Under the pieces are notes generated by a model. The model was not told where the DNA came from, did no database searches, and saw only the letters and a list, made by a program, of their open reading frames with translations. The position numbers were made by a program, and so were the translations under genes. Positions 2,593 to 35,837 of a DNA stretch of 64,000 nt are shown here, piece by piece (position 1 is the stretch's first letter; each line of letters begins with the position of its first letter). The stretch comes from Acinetobacter sp. CS-2 (GTDB taxonomy: Bacteria > Pseudomonadota > Gammaproteobacteria > Pseudomonadales > Moraxellaceae). The stretch covers positions 1,550,001-1,614,000 of the forward strand of contig NZ_CP067019.1 in NCBI RefSeq assembly GCF_016599715.1, in the 5' to 3' direction.

Positions 2593-3090
2593 ATGGCAAG
2601 ACTTAAAAAGCATGAAAAAGTTTTTATAGTTCGTGCACTTGCACAGTTTATGACACCTACTCAGGTGGTTGAGGACATCAAGGTAAAATTAGGGGTTGAT
2701 GTTTCTCCACAACAAGTAGAGACATACGACCCAACCAAAGTTGCAGGTGCTGATCTATCGCAAGAATTTGTCGATCTATTTCATGAGGCTCGAAAGAAAT
2801 ATATTGAGCAGCCGATCTATAACATTGAAGGTGCTAATGACATTGTTCAGCTCAAGGTGTTGAGCACCTTATTTATTAAAAAGCAAAACAATACACGTGA
2901 TGCAATCAAGCTATCTGATCAAATGCAAAAGATTGTTAAAGGGTACTATGAGAAGAAAATAGAAATCACCGGTAAAGATGGCGGGCCAATTCAGCAAGAA
3001 ACTAAATCAACACATAAGTTTTCACCGGAAGAACTGGCAGGCTTGTCTGCGCAAGAGCTTTCACGTTTGGCAATTAATGGCAAGTTATGA
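2593..3090 (+). CDS. Terminase small subunit-like protein (DUF2280)
   Basis: This 165-residue protein begins MARLKKHEKVFIVRALAQFM, then has a helix-turn-helix-like region ending VSPQQVETYDPTK, typical of DUF2280 proteins that sit next to large terminases. The expected role is DNA recognition and loading of the packaging motor. The stop overlaps the start of the large subunit by 4 bases (ATGA), which supports a functional pair. The C-terminal third is rich in Glu/Ser and probably contacts the large subunit. The family match is by pattern, not search. Confidence 0.7.
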   Translation: MARLKKHEKVFIVRALAQFMTPTQVVEDIKVKLGVDVSPQQVETYDPTKVAGADLSQEFVDLFHEARKKYIEQPIYNIEGANDIVQLKVLSTLFIKKQNNTRDAIKLSDQMQKIVKGYYEKKIEITGKDGGPIQQETKSTHKFSPEELAGLSAQELSRLAINGKL

Positions 3091-4763
3091 CTTATGCAAT
3101 TGAAGATATAGCGCCACTAATTAAAGAGTGGACGATCAACATACGCCTGCCTGAAGTCATTGAAGAAATGACACGGCGTTATTACTACCGAATGCTGATA
3201 GAACAGAATGAGCTAAGTATTCAGGCTGAAATCTACAAATGTAAGAACGACCCTGCACATTGGTTTAATCACTGGGTATGGACTTATGATCCTCGGGGTA
3301 TGCCTTTTGGATTGCCAGCGAATATTCCTTTTGTCTTGCGCCCTGGTCAGGTTGAACTCGTAGATTGGTTGATTGAACGTGAGAGCACCCAAACACATGG
3401 CCTGATTGAAAAAAGTCGTGATGAAGGGATGAGTTATGTAGTCCTGGGGTTTTACTTGCACCGATGGTTATTTGTTGAAGGCTTTGCGGGTGGGGTTGGT
3501 AGTCGTAAAGAGGACCTTGTCGATAAGAAGGGTGACCCCAAGACATTGCTGCATAAGTTCCGGGACATGTTTTCCAAGTTGCCAGACTGGATGAAGCCGA
3601 GGGGCTTTGTTGAAAAAGTACATGACAACTACATGCGAATCATTAACCCGGACAACGGCGCAACCGTTACCGGTGAAGCTGGTGACAACATTGGCCGTGG
3701 TGGTCGTACCACAATGTACTTTCTGGATGAATGGGCATTCGTAGAGCGTCAAGAAGCGGTAGATGCTGCAATTTCCCAGAATACAAACGTTCATATCAAA
3801 GGGTCTACTCCCAATGGTATCGGCGATCGCTTTCACCAGGATCGTTTTAGCGGTCGTTACGCCGTCTTTACCATGCCTTGGAGAGCTAATCCTGATAAGA
3901 ATTGGCAGGCTGAGATACATGGAAAATTGATTTATCCATGGTATGAAAAGCAAAAGGCCACACTTGATGACGTTGTTTTGGCTCAGGAAGTAGATATTGA
4001 TTACGCCGCATCGGTTGAAGGCGTACTGATCCCCTCCGCATGGGTTGAAGCTGCGGTTGATTCTCATATTGAGCTCGGTATTCAGCCTTCTGGTGAGCGT
4101 AACGGTGCACTGGATGTGGCGGATGAAGGTAAGGATAAAAACTCTTTTGCTGCCCGCCATGGGATCGTATTGCAATACCTGGATACATGGTCTGGTGTTG
4201 GTGATGACATTTTTGGTACCACGCAAAAGGCTATCGATGCATGCCTGGATTTGAAGCTGAATTTGTTCTTCTACGATGCAGATGGTTTAGGTGCTGGTGT
4301 ACGCGGTGATGCTCGCGTCATTAATGAGCAGAATCAGGTGAAGGGGATGCCAGAAATTGAGGCTAATCCTTTCCGGGGATCAGGTGCAGTACATAACCCT
4401 GAGCAGGAGATGGTTGAGGCACGTAAAAACGTGGACTTCTTTGCCAATCTTAAAGCTCAGATGTGGTGGTCATTGCGACTTAGATTCCAAAACACCTACC
4501 GAGCTTTACAGGGCATGCAATATGACCCAGACAGTCTTATTTCACTCTCAACACAAGACATAGATAAGCAAGAGCTTGAACAACTTAAGCGCGAACTTTC
4601 ACAACCCACATACAGCAAAAATGGTGCAGGCAAAATTTTAGTGAATAAGCAGCCTGACGGTGCACTGTCACCAAACCGGGCTGATAGCGTGATGATTTGT
4701 TTCAGTGATATTAGAGAGCGGAAAAGAAAGAAACCTGCAGGTGCGGGTACTCGAACTTATTGA
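3087..4763 (+). CDS. Terminase large subunit (Mu gp28-like)
   Basis: 558 residues, the usual size for the packaging ATPase/nuclease. Near residues 105-120 a degenerate Walker A region is seen (EKSRDEGMSYVVLG), with Walker B TMYFLDEW near 210-217. The C-terminal RNase H-like nuclease shows acidic residues in GALDVADEGKDKNS and FFYDADGLGAG, and a closing Asp in SPNRADSVM. It should cut and pump DNA into proheads through the portal encoded next. Start ATG 3087 overlaps the small subunit stop. The head order from here (terminase, DUF935, gpF, protease, gp36, gpG) is Mu-like. Confidence 0.88.
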   Translation: MTYAIEDIAPLIKEWTINIRLPEVIEEMTRRYYYRMLIEQNELSIQAEIYKCKNDPAHWFNHWVWTYDPRGMPFGLPANIPFVLRPGQVELVDWLIERESTQTHGLIEKSRDEGMSYVVLGFYLHRWLFVEGFAGGVGSRKEDLVDKKGDPKTLLHKFRDMFSKLPDWMKPRGFVEKVHDNYMRIINPDNGATVTGEAGDNIGRGGRTTMYFLDEWAFVERQEAVDAAISQNTNVHIKGSTPNGIGDRFHQDRFSGRYAVFTMPWRANPDKNWQAEIHGKLIYPWYEKQKATLDDVVLAQEVDIDYAASVEGVLIPSAWVEAAVDSHIELGIQPSGERNGALDVADEGKDKNSFAARHGIVLQYLDTWSGVGDDIFGTTQKAIDACLDLKLNLFFYDADGLGAGVRGDARVINEQNQVKGMPEIEANPFRGSGAVHNPEQEMVEARKNVDFFANLKAQMWWSLRLRFQNTYRALQGMQYDPDSLISLSTQDIDKQELEQLKRELSQPTYSKNGAGKILVNKQPDGALSPNRADSVMICFSDIRERKRKKPAGAGTRTY

Positions 4764-6239: not shown

Positions 6240-8393
6240 ATGCAACCAGTAACTTTCCTTGAGGCGCTTCAGTTTGCTCACAGTAAGAAGATTGTCCTTC
6301 CGGATGAGTTCTATTCAATGGACCTTAAGACCAGGCAGATGGCGACTACAGTTAGCTTTCTATCAAGTCTTGAGCAAATTGAAACGGTTATCAAGGCGGT
6401 GAATAAATCCATTGCCGACGGTGGAACGTTTAATGACTTTCAAAAGCTGATTGCTGAGTCTGAAATCATTTTACCGAAGCATTACTTGGACAATGTATTC
6501 CGTACCAATATCCAGAATGCGTATGGTCATGGGCGGTGGCAACAACAGCAACGGAATAAGGCTAAACGTCCATATCTGATGTACTCGGCGATTGATGATA
6601 GCCGGGTGCGTCCTGCACATTTAGCCTTGAATCGTATTGTGCTACCAATTGATCATCCATTTTGGCTGACACATTACCCGCCGTTGGGTTTCCGTTGTTT
6701 CTTACCTGATACGAAAATTGATGGTGCCTCACATGGCGCAATTAAGAGATTTTACAGCGGGAAGGTCGTAAAGCTTGTCACCCAGTCTGGCCGCAAGTTG
6801 AGGGTCACGGCTAATCACCCAATACTTACGAGTCGTGGTTGGGTTATTGCTGAGCTCATTAAGCAAGGCGACAATTTGATTGCTTACGACAGACCAGTCG
6901 AAAGTCTTAATGCTAACGGTTTGACGCGGGAGGTATACGATAATGAGTTTGTACCCACTGCTGAAAATCTTTTCAAGTCGTTCATTAGTCATGCTCTTAC
7001 TATCGGCGAAGCATCTTCTTTCAAGTTCGATAGCAATCTTTTCACCTTTGATAGTGAAATCCACATTGATATCCTGAATGATGGTTTGTCGATCAAGATT
7101 GATTCCAATGGTGGTCAAGGCATCAAACAGCGAATGTTCGTGATCAGAAATGATGGAACCTGTTTCGAGAGCTTTGAAGCCAGCAGCACGCCTAAGAGTG
7201 GGCTTGTTGTTCCTAATATTATGCTTTCTCAGGATTCTGGCGACATTTCCCTCGGATGTGTTGAAAGTAGTAGCGACTTTATGCTTGCCGATATTTTGAG
7301 ATTGATAGAGATCAAGGACAGCAAGCTCCAACTCTCTATTGGAGTCTCTACAGGCATCCCAAGCAGCAGAGCATTGACGCTCAATTCCGCCTGGAGTCTG
7401 TTTGATGGTCTTCCACTTGACCGCTTCGGCTTGGCTTTGTGTTCTCAAGACAACGCCCTTTTTGAGGAATTGTCTAGTCACGGAGTGTCTGACGATTCCG
7501 GTCTGTTTGGATATTTGGTTGATGCTCATGCCAGCCATGTAGCAGTCGATCCAGTGGTCGATGTTGTTGAGGACTTTTTCAGCGGTCATGTGTATGATTT
7601 CCAGAGTGATAGTGGTTTATTGTCCGCAGATGGAATTATAACACATAACTGCCGGTGCACTGTGATTGCTTTAACCGAGAAACAGGCATTGAAATACGGC
7701 ATTACTCCTGATGATAAGTTGCCAGAAGTTGCCGAGGCACTGGATTGGAGTTCTCATCCGCTGCAGTTTGGTGAGCTTGAATCACTAGTTGATAAGAAGA
7801 TCAGTGCTTCATCACTGGATAAGGAATATCTCCTCGAGCAGAAAGAAGTAATTAAGGCTGAATGGACTGCGAGTAAAAAGTTGACCAGTCTTTTTGCTCC
7901 AATGGATGATAAAACCCGGGACCTGTTTGATACGGTGGCCAATACGGTGATTCCACTCGATCCACAGATCAGGCCAAGTGCAATTCGAACTTTTTTGGAT
8001 TATGTACAAGGGAATGATGCTGCACTGACTGGTTATTTAAACTCTGCTACTAGTTCACTGGCTGATGATGTGCTTAAGCGCTGGATAGGTACTGATATGG
8101 CAGCTATTCAGGCTGTGGCAAGTAATACGACCTCAACCGTGGTGGGTGCTGCAACTCTTCAGCAGGTGGCAGCTTATCAGGTCGGACAAACAGTTCAACT
8201 AAATGCGCCGTTGCTGATGGCTGATATGGCTTCAGATATCGTAATCAAGATTGAGAATGCCAAAGGTTTGGGTATTGATCTTGAAAAGCTCAATGCTGGG
8301 CAAGGTGTACTGTTTGAAATGGGATTGTCTTTTGAGGTTCTTAAGGTTGAGATTGTAGAGGAGAAAATGATTTATACTTTGAAGTTAAGATAG
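6240..8393 (+). CDS. Mu gpF-like head morphogenesis protein containing an intein
   Basis: The 717-residue product is a minor head protein of the Mu gpF/SPP1 gp7 type split by an intein. The N-extein (1-152) includes VFRTNIQNAYGHGRWQQQQ and DDSRVRPAHLALNRIVLP, hallmarks of the family, and ends PPLGFR. The C-extein (471-717) begins CRCTVIAL. Joined, they restore the conserved G-F-x-Cys-Arg-Cys motif and give a 399-residue protein, near the family's usual size. The intein is residues 153-470. Splicing should therefore be needed to make a working head protein. It sits between the portal and the protease/scaffold genes. Codons 164-450 are also read on the opposite strand as a nuclease gene. Confidence 0.9.
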   Translation: MQPVTFLEALQFAHSKKIVLPDEFYSMDLKTRQMATTVSFLSSLEQIETVIKAVNKSIADGGTFNDFQKLIAESEIILPKHYLDNVFRTNIQNAYGHGRWQQQQRNKAKRPYLMYSAIDDSRVRPAHLALNRIVLPIDHPFWLTHYPPLGFRCFLPDTKIDGASHGAIKRFYSGKVVKLVTQSGRKLRVTANHPILTSRGWVIAELIKQGDNLIAYDRPVESLNANGLTREVYDNEFVPTAENLFKSFISHALTIGEASSFKFDSNLFTFDSEIHIDILNDGLSIKIDSNGGQGIKQRMFVIRNDGTCFESFEASSTPKSGLVVPNIMLSQDSGDISLGCVESSSDFMLADILRLIEIKDSKLQLSIGVSTGIPSSRALTLNSAWSLFDGLPLDRFGLALCSQDNALFEELSSHGVSDDSGLFGYLVDAHASHVAVDPVVDVVEDFFSGHVYDFQSDSGLLSADGIITHNCRCTVIALTEKQALKYGITPDDKLPEVAEALDWSSHPLQFGELESLVDKKISASSLDKEYLLEQKEVIKAEWTASKKLTSLFAPMDDKTRDLFDTVANTVIPLDPQIRPSAIRTFLDYVQGNDAALTGYLNSATSSLADDVLKRWIGTDMAAIQAVASNTTSTVVGAATLQQVAAYQVGQTVQLNAPLLMADMASDIVIKIENAKGLGIDLEKLNAGQGVLFEMGLSFEVLKVEIVEEKMIYTLKLR
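6729..7589 (-). CDS. Antisense homing-endonuclease candidate nested in the intein (286 aa)
   Basis: On the minus strand, from ATG at 7589 to TGA at 6729, an apparently genuine protein is read. Residues 14-48 form one helix-turn-helix (CYMAGMSINQISKQTGIVRH) and residues 90-128 a second (KVATTFNTSEGNVARILRKH). Residues 150-222 look like a Vsr/EDxHD-type PD-(D/E)XK core: Glu151 in EHSLFDAL, Asp177 in NVDFTIKGEKIAIELERR, Glu188/Glu190, then SSGYKLIIVYL. DNA-binding repeats fused to a Vsr-like nuclease occur in known homing endonucleases, so I infer that it mobilises the intein. Codons share triplet boundaries with the intein frame (residue n here lies opposite residue 451-n of the head protein). 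The first 18 and last 45 residues overlap the splicing domains. The ribosome site is weak (GGAA, 9 bases). Family assignment by eye only. Confidence 0.8.
   Translation of the reverse strand: MTAEKVLNNIDHWIDCYMAGMSINQISKQTGIVRHSVTRQFLKKGVVLRTQSQAEAVKWKTIKQTPGGIERQCSAAWDACRDSNRELELAVLDLYQSQNIGKHKVATTFNTSEGNVARILRKHNIRNNKPTLRRAAGFKALETGSIISDHEHSLFDALTTIGINLDRQTIIQDINVDFTIKGEKIAIELERRCFADSKSMTNERLEKIFSSGYKLIIVYLPRQTVSIKTFDWSVVSNQIVALLNELSNNPTTTRKYWVISRDPQLAARLGDKLYDLPAVKSLNCAM
7635..7643 (-). promoter_or_regulatory. Extended -10 promoter for the antisense nuclease gene
   Basis: Read on the minus strand the bases are TGTTATAAT, a perfect extended -10 (TGn plus TATAAT). The -35 is poor, as allowed for extended -10 promoters. 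Transcription should start near 7627, about 38 bases before the ATG at 7589. On the plus strand the same 9 bases are the codons ATT ATA ACA for Ile-Ile-Thr of intein block G. Confidence 0.55.
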
Positions 8394-33077: not shown

Positions 33078-34351
33078 TTTTTATAAATGATCTTTTAATC
33101 GATCATCGAACTGAATCGTAAACCAATTCATTGCTAAACGCCAATTTTGAATTGGCATGGTCCATTTTTTAGCAGCATTTGAAGTTGCTAAATAAATGAC
33201 CTTTTTCACTGAATCATCAGAAGAGAAGATCTTTCTCTTTTTAGTTGAATGGCGAATCACGCTATTCAATGATTCAATTGCATTTGTTGTATAAATCGCA
33301 TGACGTATTTCAGCAGGGTAGCTAAAGATCGTTCGGATATTTTCCCAATTTGCCCGCCAGGATTCTCCAATTTTTGGATACTGGTGATTCCATTGATCGC
33401 AGAAGATATCTAGGGACTTTAAAGCATTTTCTTCTGTACTTGCCTGATAGATCGCCTTCAATCCTGCTGTTACAGCTTTGTAGTCCTTCCAGCTCACAAA
33501 TCTCAGGCTATTGCGTACAACATGTACGATACACAGCTGGATGTCAGTATGAGGGTAGACAGAGGCTATCGCATCAGGAAAGCCTTTTAGCCCATCTACA
33601 CAGGCAACAAGAATATCTTGCACTCCTCGATTTTTAAGCTCTGTCATGACTGACAGCCAGAATTTGGAACCTTCTGTTTGAGCAAGCCACATGCCAAGAA
33701 GTTCTTTTTGGCCATCCAGGTTAATGCCTAATGCTAAATAAACTGATTTATTGATTACTGTTGAATGCTGACGAACCTTAACAACAATGCAATCTAAATA
33801 GACAACAGGATAAAGACTATCGAGTGTTCTATTTTGCCATTCTGTCACTTGTTCAATGACAGCATCCGTCACCTTACTAATAAGGGAGGCAGATACATCG
33901 GCATCGTACATTTCTTTAAAGAAAGCAACAATTTCTCTATTTGTCATTCCTTTCGCATATAGCGAAAGAATTTGATCATCCATGCTAGTAATGCGCGTTT
34001 GATGCTTCTTAATAATCTGTGGTTCAAAAGAGCCGTCACGATCACGAGGGATATCTAAAGCAAGCTGCCCATCTTGTGTTAGAACTGTTTTGGAGCTAAA
34101 ACCATTACGTGCATTAGATCCTTTCTTAGGTTGATGCTTTTCATAGCCTAAATGTTCAGAAAGCTCAGTATTCAGAGCGGTTTCGATCATGAACTTTTTA
34201 AATATGGCTGTCATTTGGTTTAAATCTTCAGGAGTTTTTAAACCTTTAGCTAATTCAGCTGCCATACTTTTGATTGTAGCTTCATCCATGTGAAGTACCT
34301 CTTTTTATTATCCTCAGTAGGATAAATGAAAATTAAGTACTTACACAAAAT
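33060..34351 (-). mobile_element. IS256-family insertion sequence (about 1.29 kb)
   Basis: Ends share ATTTTGTGTAAGT (33060-33072) and its complement ACTTACACAAAAT (34339-34351). One transposase gene fills it. The flanks (TGTAAATT left, TTAGAACA right) do not match, so no target duplication is visible, which suggests a deletion or recombination next to the element. Confidence 0.85.
33081..34289 (-). CDS. IS256-family transposase (402 aa)
   Basis: Mutator-type DDE transposase. Seen are the N-terminal LSEHLGYEKHQPKKGSNARN and DRDGSFEPQIIKKHQ, the HTH-like ISLYAKGMTNREIVAF-type segment (LSLYAKGMTNREIVAFFKEM), first Asp in VVYLDCIVVKVR, second Asp in VACVDGLKGFPDA, and Glu in NAIESLNSVIRHSTKKRK. 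The length is normal for the family and no frameshift is seen, so it is probably active. Confidence 0.92.
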   Translation of the reverse strand: MDEATIKSMAAELAKGLKTPEDLNQMTAIFKKFMIETALNTELSEHLGYEKHQPKKGSNARNGFSSKTVLTQDGQLALDIPRDRDGSFEPQIIKKHQTRITSMDDQILSLYAKGMTNREIVAFFKEMYDADVSASLISKVTDAVIEQVTEWQNRTLDSLYPVVYLDCIVVKVRQHSTVINKSVYLALGINLDGQKELLGMWLAQTEGSKFWLSVMTELKNRGVQDILVACVDGLKGFPDAIASVYPHTDIQLCIVHVVRNSLRFVSWKDYKAVTAGLKAIYQASTEENALKSLDIFCDQWNHQYPKIGESWRANWENIRTIFSYPAEIRHAIYTTNAIESLNSVIRHSTKKRKIFSSDDSVKKVIYLATSNAAKKWTMPIQNWRLAMNWFTIQFDDRLKDHL

Positions 34352-34613: not shown

Positions 34614-35837
34614 TTATTCTTTCCACCCATCTACAATATCAGCCCACTGTTGTAACATATCCCTGCGCTGGTTCATGTACTTAGCATGATTATAAGATGC
34701 TCTAACTTTGTTTTGTTCAGCATGAGCTAACTGCTTCTCAATCCAATTTTCATCAAAATCCAATTCATTTAATATTGTTGATGCAGTTGCCCTAAAATCA
34801 TGTGCTGTTACTGCTTTTAATCCCATATTTTTAAGAGCTGCATTCAATGTGGCACCACCAATAGGATTGGAGTCACCACCACTATAGACAGCAGGAAATA
34901 CATATTCCTTGTTTCCAGATTCAATGTACTGTTGCTTCAATAAAGCATAAAGCTGCTCTGACATTGGCACCAGGTGGATTCTATTTTTCTTTGTTGTTCT
35001 CTCTTGCGAATTGTTTCTTGTGGAGATTGGGAAATTAATAACCCTGGATTCAAAGTCTATATAAGACCATTTCATGCGTCTTATTTCTACAGATCGTAGC
35101 ATTGTATATGCCATTGTGAGTAACGCGTTTCTAACTGTTGCAGATCCACGAAAACTATCCAATCCCTTTCTAAAGTGTGATTGTTCTTCTTTGGTTAATG
35201 GTCTTGCGTGTTCAATATCAGGTCGAATTATTGATCCCCTGACTGCATAGGTTGGATCATTTTCAGCTCTTAAAGTAGCAATAGCGTAGCGCATGACAGC
35301 GCCGATAATTTTTATATTATTGAGTGCAGTAATCTCTCCTGTACCTCTTTTTCCTGTTGTTCTAACGCGAGACACTGTAGATCTTGCAATATATAAGACC
35401 TCAGCAGCCGATACTTCAGAAACATTCTTAGAGCCTATGATTGGGTAAATATCAATTTCAAGGGATTTTGTTATCTTGTTCAGGTATCCACTGGATCTAT
35501 CTTTTAAAATTTCCGTAATATATTCTTTTGCAACAAGCTCAAACGTGTTTGCATTCTGAATGCTGGCTTCGATTTTTTCAGTTTTCCTAATCTGAGCTGG
35601 ATTTTTGCCATCACTCAATAAAGCTCTGGCTTCATCTCTAGCTTTACGTGCGTCTGATAAACTTACGGCTGGATACTCACCAAGACTCAGCATTGATGCT
35701 TTACCATCAAAGCGATATCTATAGCGCCATAATTTAGAACCGCTTTGTCTTATCTCAATACAAAGCCCATTGTGATCGGCTATACGGTAAGGCTTTTCTC
35801 TAGGCTTTAAGCTTCTGATTTTTGTGTCTGTTAGCAT
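34614..35837 (-). CDS. Phage tyrosine integrase (407 aa)
   Basis: Full-length integrase of the DUF4102 group: arm-binding domain (MLTDTKIRSLKPREKPYRIA; LWRYRYRFDGKASMLSLGEY), SAM-like core (residues 100-190), and a catalytic domain with Arg in TMLRSVEIRRMKW, His-x2-Arg in TAHDFRATASTIL, His in QLAHAEQNKVR, and the Tyr in SYNHAKYMNQRR. It should integrate and, with a partner, excise the prophage. It sits at the right end, reading away from the nearby host junction. Confidence 0.93.
   Translation of the reverse strand: MLTDTKIRSLKPREKPYRIADHNGLCIEIRQSGSKLWRYRYRFDGKASMLSLGEYPAVSLSDARKARDEARALLSDGKNPAQIRKTEKIEASIQNANTFELVAKEYITEILKDRSSGYLNKITKSLEIDIYPIIGSKNVSEVSAAEVLYIARSTVSRVRTTGKRGTGEITALNNIKIIGAVMRYAIATLRAENDPTYAVRGSIIRPDIEHARPLTKEEQSHFRKGLDSFRGSATVRNALLTMAYTMLRSVEIRRMKWSYIDFESRVINFPISTRNNSQERTTKKNRIHLVPMSEQLYALLKQQYIESGNKEYVFPAVYSGGDSNPIGGATLNAALKNMGLKAVTAHDFRATASTILNELDFDENWIEKQLAHAEQNKVRASYNHAKYMNQRRDMLQQWADIVDGWKE

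Follow-up and report, generated by a model that had tools for sequence, protein, structure and literature searches.

An intein in the minor head gene of a Mu-like prophage overlies a predicted antisense homing endonuclease gene

The minor head gene of a Mu-like prophage in the chromosome of Acinetobacter sp. CS-2 contains an intein whose opposite strand encodes a second protein, and several lines of evidence suggest that this second protein is the homing endonuclease of the intein. The window, i.e., the whole stretch of DNA analysed, is 64,000 nt long (NZ_CP067019.1, assembly GCF_016599715.1, positions 1,550,001 to 1,614,000) and covers a phage head region with genes for a Mu portal, a MuF minor head protein, capsid E and a tape measure. 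The plus frame at 6240-8393 is a single open reading frame (ORF) of 717 aa, a Mu gpF-like minor head gene, within which 318 codons running from C1 to N318 form an intein between GFR and CRC. The minus strand of the intein holds an ORF of 286 aa, from ATG to TGA, which is register-aligned to the plus codons and, with its stop, spans 287 of the 318 intein codons. From comparisons of these sequences and their relatives, it is highly probable that the intein is mobilised by an autonomously expressed antisense homing endonuclease of the EDxHD/Vsr-like kind, laid over it codon by codon. We also think it likely that the window holds one of a widespread set of double-coding mobile inteins, about 0.8-1 kb long, in which the forward reading is a self-splicing intein and the backward reading a complete autonomous homing-endonuclease gene whose promoter, ribosome site, start and part of the fold are the reverse complement of splicing-block codons; the two selfish halves could therefore move only as one. 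An antisense nuclease layout had been proposed in a preliminary description of this DNA. Its coordinates for the intein and for the antisense ORF were right on re-reading, the size and extent of the 286-residue protein stood, and its interpretation of the layout gains support from recurrence, minus-strand selection, predicted fold and empty insertion sites. The main features are as follows.

6240-6695, plus strand: N-extein of the Mu gpF-like minor head protein, with the MuF domain (PF04233, E=1.6e-19; phrog_220, 2e-55)
6696-7649, plus strand: intein of 318 codons, with predicted Hint halves at about residues 1-67 and 280-318 (TIGR01445, AlphaFold2 model, structural matches)
7650-8393, plus strand: C-extein, beginning CRC; intein-less relatives read GFR directly followed by CRC over the site (junction comparison)
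6807-6821, plus strand: block B, TANHP, whose complement encodes antisense residues 257-261 (WVISR; YGVIR in relatives) (sequence and nuclease model)
7584-7601, plus strand: block F, GHVYDF, whose His codon CAT at 7587-7589 is the antisense ATG (sequence and alignment)
6729-7589, minus strand: antisense ORF of 286 aa, with helix-turn-helix (HTH) domain(s) and a Vsr-like PD-(D/E)XK nuclease, a predicted homing endonuclease (ORF, conservation, profile, fold)
7461-7562, minus strand: predicted N-terminal HTH, antisense residues 10-43 (AlphaFold2 helices 10-18, 23-30 and 34-43; HTH_7)
6765-7154, minus strand: predicted nuclease domain, about residues 146-275 (AlphaFold2, profile, fold matches, conservation)
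7137-7139, 7059-7061 and 7026-7028, minus strand: codons of the conserved E151, D177 and E188, respectively (alignment)

The plus frame was described beforehand as a splicing intein, and the residues expected of one are present: C1, TANH (of the form TxxH), HN and Cys+1 can be read directly in the window. The TIGR01445 model of the intein N-terminus passes its cut-off (25.7 vs 24.5 bits), and PF14890 (Intein_splicing) matches at E=3e-5, under its own cut-off. In the AlphaFold2 (AF2) model of the intein, ten-residue blocks have a predicted local distance difference test score (pLDDT) of 82-97 across residues 1-60 and 281-318; residues 123-270 lie under pLDDT 50, and the blocks between residues 101 and 270 score 28-47. 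When this model was searched with Foldseek, inteins and Hedgehog autoprocessing domains made up almost all of the top 50 rows (best E=3.6e-3). The prediction is of two splicing halves with the Hint fold, at residues about 1-67 and 280-318, flanking an unfolded middle. Two other kinds of element were rejected. The nucleases that inteins carry in frame are LAGLIDADG or HNH enzymes, e.g., that of PI-SceI, and a canonical large intein of this sort does not fit a plus frame of 717 aa in which a Pfam search found no nuclease domain and whose intein middle is predicted to be unfolded. An RNA intron (group I or II) with an antisense nuclease gene does not fit the Rfam results either: there was no match up to E=1 over 6400-7950 of the window and none at the gathering score in five other loci (L005, L008, L010, L012 and L014, in our numbering of loci), a search that an undescribed RNA family would escape.

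The antisense protein was predicted to combine HTH modules with a Vsr-like nuclease domain, and in this it would resemble I-Bth0305I. HTH_7 was found in 14 of 19 family members and HTH_23 in 13 of them (E up to 0.1). A second HTH is suggested by AF2 helices at residues 102-108 and 113-122 and by fold matches at about residues 79-134. Antisense residues 257-261, opposite block B, overlap the strand at 256-260 of the nuclease model. Two solved structures, NGO0050 (3hrl, DUF559-like) and the Vsr endonuclease (1cw0), with chains of 94-155 residues, match the nuclease part of the model only. A Pfam search with the single antisense protein gave weak nuclease matches, with DUF559 at E=0.001, slightly under its cut-off, and a Protein Data Bank (PDB) search with it gave chance matches only; the Vsr assignment therefore comes from the family profile and the predicted fold. 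As a result, the two HTH segments and the Vsr-like core of the preliminary description hold by family profile, AF2 model and fold matches, although not by single-protein Pfam matches; the structure predictions that it had called for gave an HTH and Vsr-like fold on the minus strand and two Hint halves on the plus strand. Searches of all proteins returned three relatives for the single sequence and 12 for a profile; among the 12 is a hypothetical protein of 188 aa from Edwardsiella phage MSW-3. A relative of the antisense protein occurs in Acinetobacter sp. ANC 4204 (82%).

The antisense layout recurs in related loci. In a tblastn search of sequenced phages, the intein hit 131 records, of which 109 belong to Salmonella, Gordonia, Pseudomonas and Klebsiella phages; 40 of the 131 were listed and 12 of those fetched. 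In a first set made up of these 12 phage records, the window and four loci from IMG/VR, 17 of 17 loci have a long antisense ORF that keeps this register. Searches of IMG/VR and GTDB with an alignment of the nuclease gave 39 loci, and in all 39 the match lies antisense inside a long plus-strand ORF. When the seed was a 65-residue alignment of the plus splicing block, an antisense nuclease was found in 80 of the 80 loci returned, from 482 relatives, in a search that was not fully blind because its seed is the nuclease C-terminus on the other strand. The antisense matches in this set extend far past the 65-residue seed, and the weakest of them, in a contig-end fragment, still has E=3.9e-11. The sets of 17, 39 and 80 loci overlap with one another. 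In total, 135 loci were processed, 30 were dropped where the intein end was missed by the motif used, and the 105 left formed 62 clusters at 97% DNA identity. C1, T38, H41 and N318 are present in 62 of the 62 inteins and the +1 Cys in 62 of 62 rows, a conservation partly built in by the design of the search.

Annotation mostly hides the nuclease. It is missing from the annotation of all 12 phage records that were fetched at first; the record of Escherichia phage Snoke annotates the intein itself, and another phage record annotates a 134-codon-long antisense-strand stretch as hypothetical. In three phage records (MZ560703, MT677934 and OQ507916), the intein-bearing head protein is labelled 'NAD+--asparagine ADP-ribosyltransferase', an odd name for a MuF protein. 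Two draws of 398 and 369 genomes, which overlap, showed no free-standing relative of the nuclease. These contained two full-length nuclease matches, both inside inteins (the window itself, L073, and L074), and among the partial profile matches given as loci (37 of 39) none had a TxNH-bearing frame over its midpoint.

A number of observations indicate that selection in the middle of the intein acts on the minus strand. First, where antisense codons are aligned with the plus codons, the antisense wobble falls on plus position 1, and the substitutions follow it. Among 27 non-overlapping nearest pairs drawn from the 62 inteins, differences in the middle were more numerous at plus position 1 than at position 3 in all 27 (sums at positions 1/2/3 of 2216/1094/1555). 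The exteins, available for 26 pairs, showed position 3 above position 1 in 25 (sums 1013/808/1847), the exception being L177/L189. The nine pairs first examined likewise had position 1 above position 3 in each middle, and the window and L003 differ there at 54/8/28 positions, mostly antisense wobble. Second, over the 61 inteins with extein the mean identity was 29% for the minus protein and 20% for the plus middle, and the minus protein was the more similar in 1824 of 1830 pairs. Third, antisense E151 and E188 are conserved in 62 of 62 inteins, and D177, N175 and R204 in 61. The plus residues facing E151, D177, N175 and E188 alternate between L and F or between I and V (with one Ala facing N175), which is the wobble expected of a fixed antisense Glu, Asp or Asn. 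Fourth, 23 plus columns are conserved at 85% or more, and 19 of them fall near the ends of the intein, within its first 59 or its last 22 residues. As comparison shows, the plus middle stays open yet varies along the minus wobble, and it would be mainly a shadow of the nuclease, much as had been described; no known nuclease was found in it by Pfam, and the AF2 model leaves it unfolded.

These data also bear on two alternatives. One is that the plus middle is itself a functional domain, e.g., a divergent in-frame endonuclease, with the antisense reading secondary. Its best argument is the few columns conserved there (F93, G113, D114 and L131); by the register, L131 faces the conserved antisense Q168 and G113 faces A186, two residues ahead of E188. 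With pLDDT blocks of 28-47, no Pfam nuclease and a mean identity below that of the minus protein, we give this alternative very little probability, and an in-frame plus nuclease was rejected for want of a domain and of a predicted fold. The other is that the minus ORF is a chance shadow, as antisense frames aligned to the codons are often open in G+C-rich genes. Such openness is indeed expected in the GC-rich members from Gordonia and Pseudomonas (P0 0.13-0.39), and the neighbouring terminase gene also has an antisense run of 272 codons, because of which openness alone is insufficient evidence, even though an antisense frame free of stops had a probability of 1e-12 when the Leu/Ser content of the intein itself was combined with the codon usage of 17 coding stretches nearby (two exteins and 15 genes). 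In AT-richer members P0 falls to as little as 3e-10 (L005). What settles the reality of the ORF is the codon-position pattern, reversed in 27 of 27 pairs, together with the conserved antisense E/D/E and recurrence; the start-codon bias described below and the nuclease and HTH profile and fold matches point the same way. A chance ORF is extremely improbable, and we regard it as refuted by the substitution pattern and the conserved antisense residues.

The splicing motifs appear to contain the expression signals of the nuclease. Two candidate signals lie upstream of its start codon in the window.

7599-7602, minus strand: Shine-Dalgarno (SD)-like GGAA, 9 nt upstream of the antisense ATG (motif only, no null expectation)
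7635-7643, minus strand: extended -10 promoter-like TGTTATAAT, within the block G codons (GIITHN), 45 nt upstream of the antisense ATG (motif and resampling)

In 57 of 62 inteins (53 ATG, 3 GTG and 1 TTG), the antisense start codon coincides with the block-F residue, which is His in almost every case. This His is encoded by CAT rather than CAC in a ratio of 53:3, against 188:269 in the exteins (p=2e-17), and the bias persists across 41 lineages defined below 55% nuclease identity (35:2, p=4e-12). An SD-like 4-mer of the motif set used precedes the start position in 45 of 62, a raw count without a null. The perfect extended -10 sequence TGnTATAAT occurs in 13 of 62, where synonymous resampling of the plus codons gives an expectation of 0.7, and in eight of the 41 lineages, against 0.5 expected; the summed score of the lineages was reached by none of 2000 resamplings. 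As a control, 297 extein windows had no perfect -10 site (0.1 expected), seven sites with a score of at least 7 (4.3 expected) and a mean score of 3.54, under the null of 3.72. The antisense stop falls at plus codon 2-18 in 17 loci. The predicted promoter, start and stop would therefore all lie within the intein.

The distribution of the intein is what one would expect of a mobile element. Among the matches listed from 149 genomes of this genus, only that of the window itself runs through the intein. Of 14 intein-less relatives fetched, 13 have GFR joined directly to CRC, and L064 lacks the junction by the motif used; for the window, the intein-less junction would read GGGTTTCCGT followed immediately by TGCCGGTGC. 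With a locus assigned by its record to Jerseyvirus, Guernseyvirinae (L014), the N-extein DNA was covered to at least 80% in 330 phage records and the intein DNA in 70, the records with extein and without intein being counted by DNA coverage, not by junction. The intein tblastn matched 63 Salmonella records, in agreement with 65 by the L014 DNA comparison; matches of 35-44 bases in two Vibrio records were too short to count. In addition, among the 15 pairs with intein DNA identity over 0.7, intein DNA was closer than extein DNA in 12, e.g., 0.93 vs 0.64 in L175/L181. Changes at plus position 1 of the middle, a position nearly free for the nuclease, were rarer per codon than extein third-position changes in eight of nine pairs (not in L012/L017), the strongest contrast being that of L009/L015, with 8 changes over 228 codons against 56 over 150. 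The empty alleles, the patchy distribution and the excess intein similarity in most pairs fit homing. Inteins with an antisense nuclease were also found at a second site in MuF, after RTNVQ (L159:3001-3999), in a phrog_760 protein between NQIGA and CSIN (L180:1773-2771) and in VG15-type genes (L175:3001-3963 and L026), and the unit of intein and nuclease must therefore have changed insertion site and host protein. L162:955-3000 and L168:583-3000 each have a gene in which a portal protein and the MuF domain are joined, and it is this joint gene that holds the intein.

We infer a cycle of splicing, transcription, cleavage and homing. 1) Translation of the head gene would yield the plus-strand reading as part of the head protein; the Hint halves would splice the intein out, so that the head protein would be unharmed. 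2) The minus strand would serve as a gene of its own, with the predicted extended -10 in block G, the SD-like site, and the ATG in block F; this gene would end within block A or directly past it. 3) Nuclease production would be independent of the late operon and of splicing; the enzyme would recognise and cut the uninterrupted, conserved Cys-codon site in the head gene of another phage, and repair from the intein-bearing copy would insert both readings together.

Two further explanations accept the nuclease and differ on what it does. Some phage homing endonucleases also serve in competition between phages, and the antisense ORF could be a genuine, selected DNA-binding nuclease whose main work is the exclusion of rival phages, through cuts in their head genes, or the regulation of late transcription, the intein being a mere shelter; its HTH part might act by DNA binding and leave the DNA uncut. 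The traces expected of homing make this explanation unlikely: the element is present or absent at a single, exact boundary between codons, its presence is patchy in related phages, and the intein DNA is closer than its flanks in 12 of 15 pairs; besides, exclusion by cutting the empty site and homing are mutually compatible. It could also be that the element is mobile elsewhere and that the window copy is dead, kept only as its imprecise loss would destroy the head gene, and the decay of copies in L129 and L176 lends this some plausibility. The window copy has kept the conserved residues, the start codon, the SD-like site and a perfect extended -10, and the differences of its middle from L003 mostly follow the antisense wobble; we consider its death quite improbable.

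Mobilisation by an antisense nuclease, which we favour over both, has to be weighed against the following observations. With the nuclease model, Foldseek found nothing in the PDB below E=0.001. Some codons of the splicing-block seed also encode the antisense C-terminus, and the detection profile was itself built from family members, so that these searches depend in part on the layout. In three of the 15 pairs the intein DNA is not closer (L160/L164, L012/L017 and L026/L032), and double coding by itself lowers intein divergence. Concerning expression, five of 62 inteins have no start codon at the block-F position, the start being shifted inward by one codon in L012 and L017 and by four in L005; 17 of 62 have no SD-like 4-mer, some with near matches, e.g., CGAGA; the perfect extended -10 is limited to 13 of 62, none above 0.56 GC; and a scan for paired -35/-10 boxes found none on the minus strand and two on the plus strand (2.0 expected). 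According to the preliminary description, frequent stops in the minus frame of homologous inteins would speak against the layout; damage to this frame was noted in two loci. L129:3001-4040 has an intact plus frame and one antisense stop, which would suit a nuclease that decays in the course of a homing cycle, or a sequencing error, and L176:3001-3490 is broken in both frames, with a plus stop at codon 161 and a truncated antisense ORF; a homing cycle would also predict the damage in both. Finally, L027:960-2783 has the nuclease and the N-terminal splicing half, and the C-terminal half was not seen in the printed frame.

The proposed element shares traits with several known systems. Known inteins with a homing endonuclease carry it as an in-frame domain (PMC11855218). 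Like them, the present intein would pair a Hint-fold splicing element with a homing nuclease, both predicted here, in a conserved gene region with empty alleles; unlike them, it has the nuclease in a separate gene on the opposite strand, overlapping the splicing motifs. I-Bth0305I belongs to the EDxHD (Vsr-like) class of homing endonucleases (PMC3943268), to which the antisense protein is related by a predicted homologous Vsr-like catalytic domain and tethered DNA-binding HTH modules. E151, D177 and E188 are conserved in it. It differs from I-Bth0305I in that no RNA intron signal was found here and in that its gene is antisense and codon-aligned to a Hint frame. I-DsqI is encoded antisense in a nuclear rDNA group I intron, and enzymes of this type are reported to be expressed in vivo and to cleave the site that lacks the intron (PMC9548176). 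The two have in common a nuclease gene antisense to its host element; the host of I-DsqI is a eukaryotic ribozyme intron in an rRNA gene, with no codons shared with a protein. The ShiLan element is an in-frame insertion without splicing motifs in a phage methylase gene that encodes an HNH endonuclease out of frame and spreads as a mobile element (PMC11855218). There too a phage gene has received an insertion that keeps its frame and conceals a nuclease in a different one; here, by contrast, the nuclease is Vsr-like and antisense, and splicing motifs are present. Our literature searches found no published account of an intein with a nuclease on its antisense strand; a preprint (10.1101/2025.01.02.630785), cited in PMC11855218 and concerned with inteins of 'non-canonical architecture' in actinobacteriophages, might bear on priority.

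If this reading is true, the timing of the nuclease would be uncoupled both from the late head operon and from splicing. Nuclease and intein would be tied base by base, which bears on how homing endonucleases persist, although point mutations could still kill the nuclease alone, as L129 suggests. The inteins would also be a clear example from nature of double coding over a long stretch, antisense and codon-aligned, for which the substitutions give direct evidence, in a nuclease family that the annotation of the 12 phage records conceals.

Two minor observations concern the rest of the window. The terminase gene (3087-4763), besides its stop-free antisense run, overlaps an antisense ORF of 252 aa at 3468-4226 (minus strand), probably by chance. 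After the prophage tail region, a Mutator-family transposase and a phage integrase are encoded at 33081-34289 and 34614-35837, both on the minus strand.

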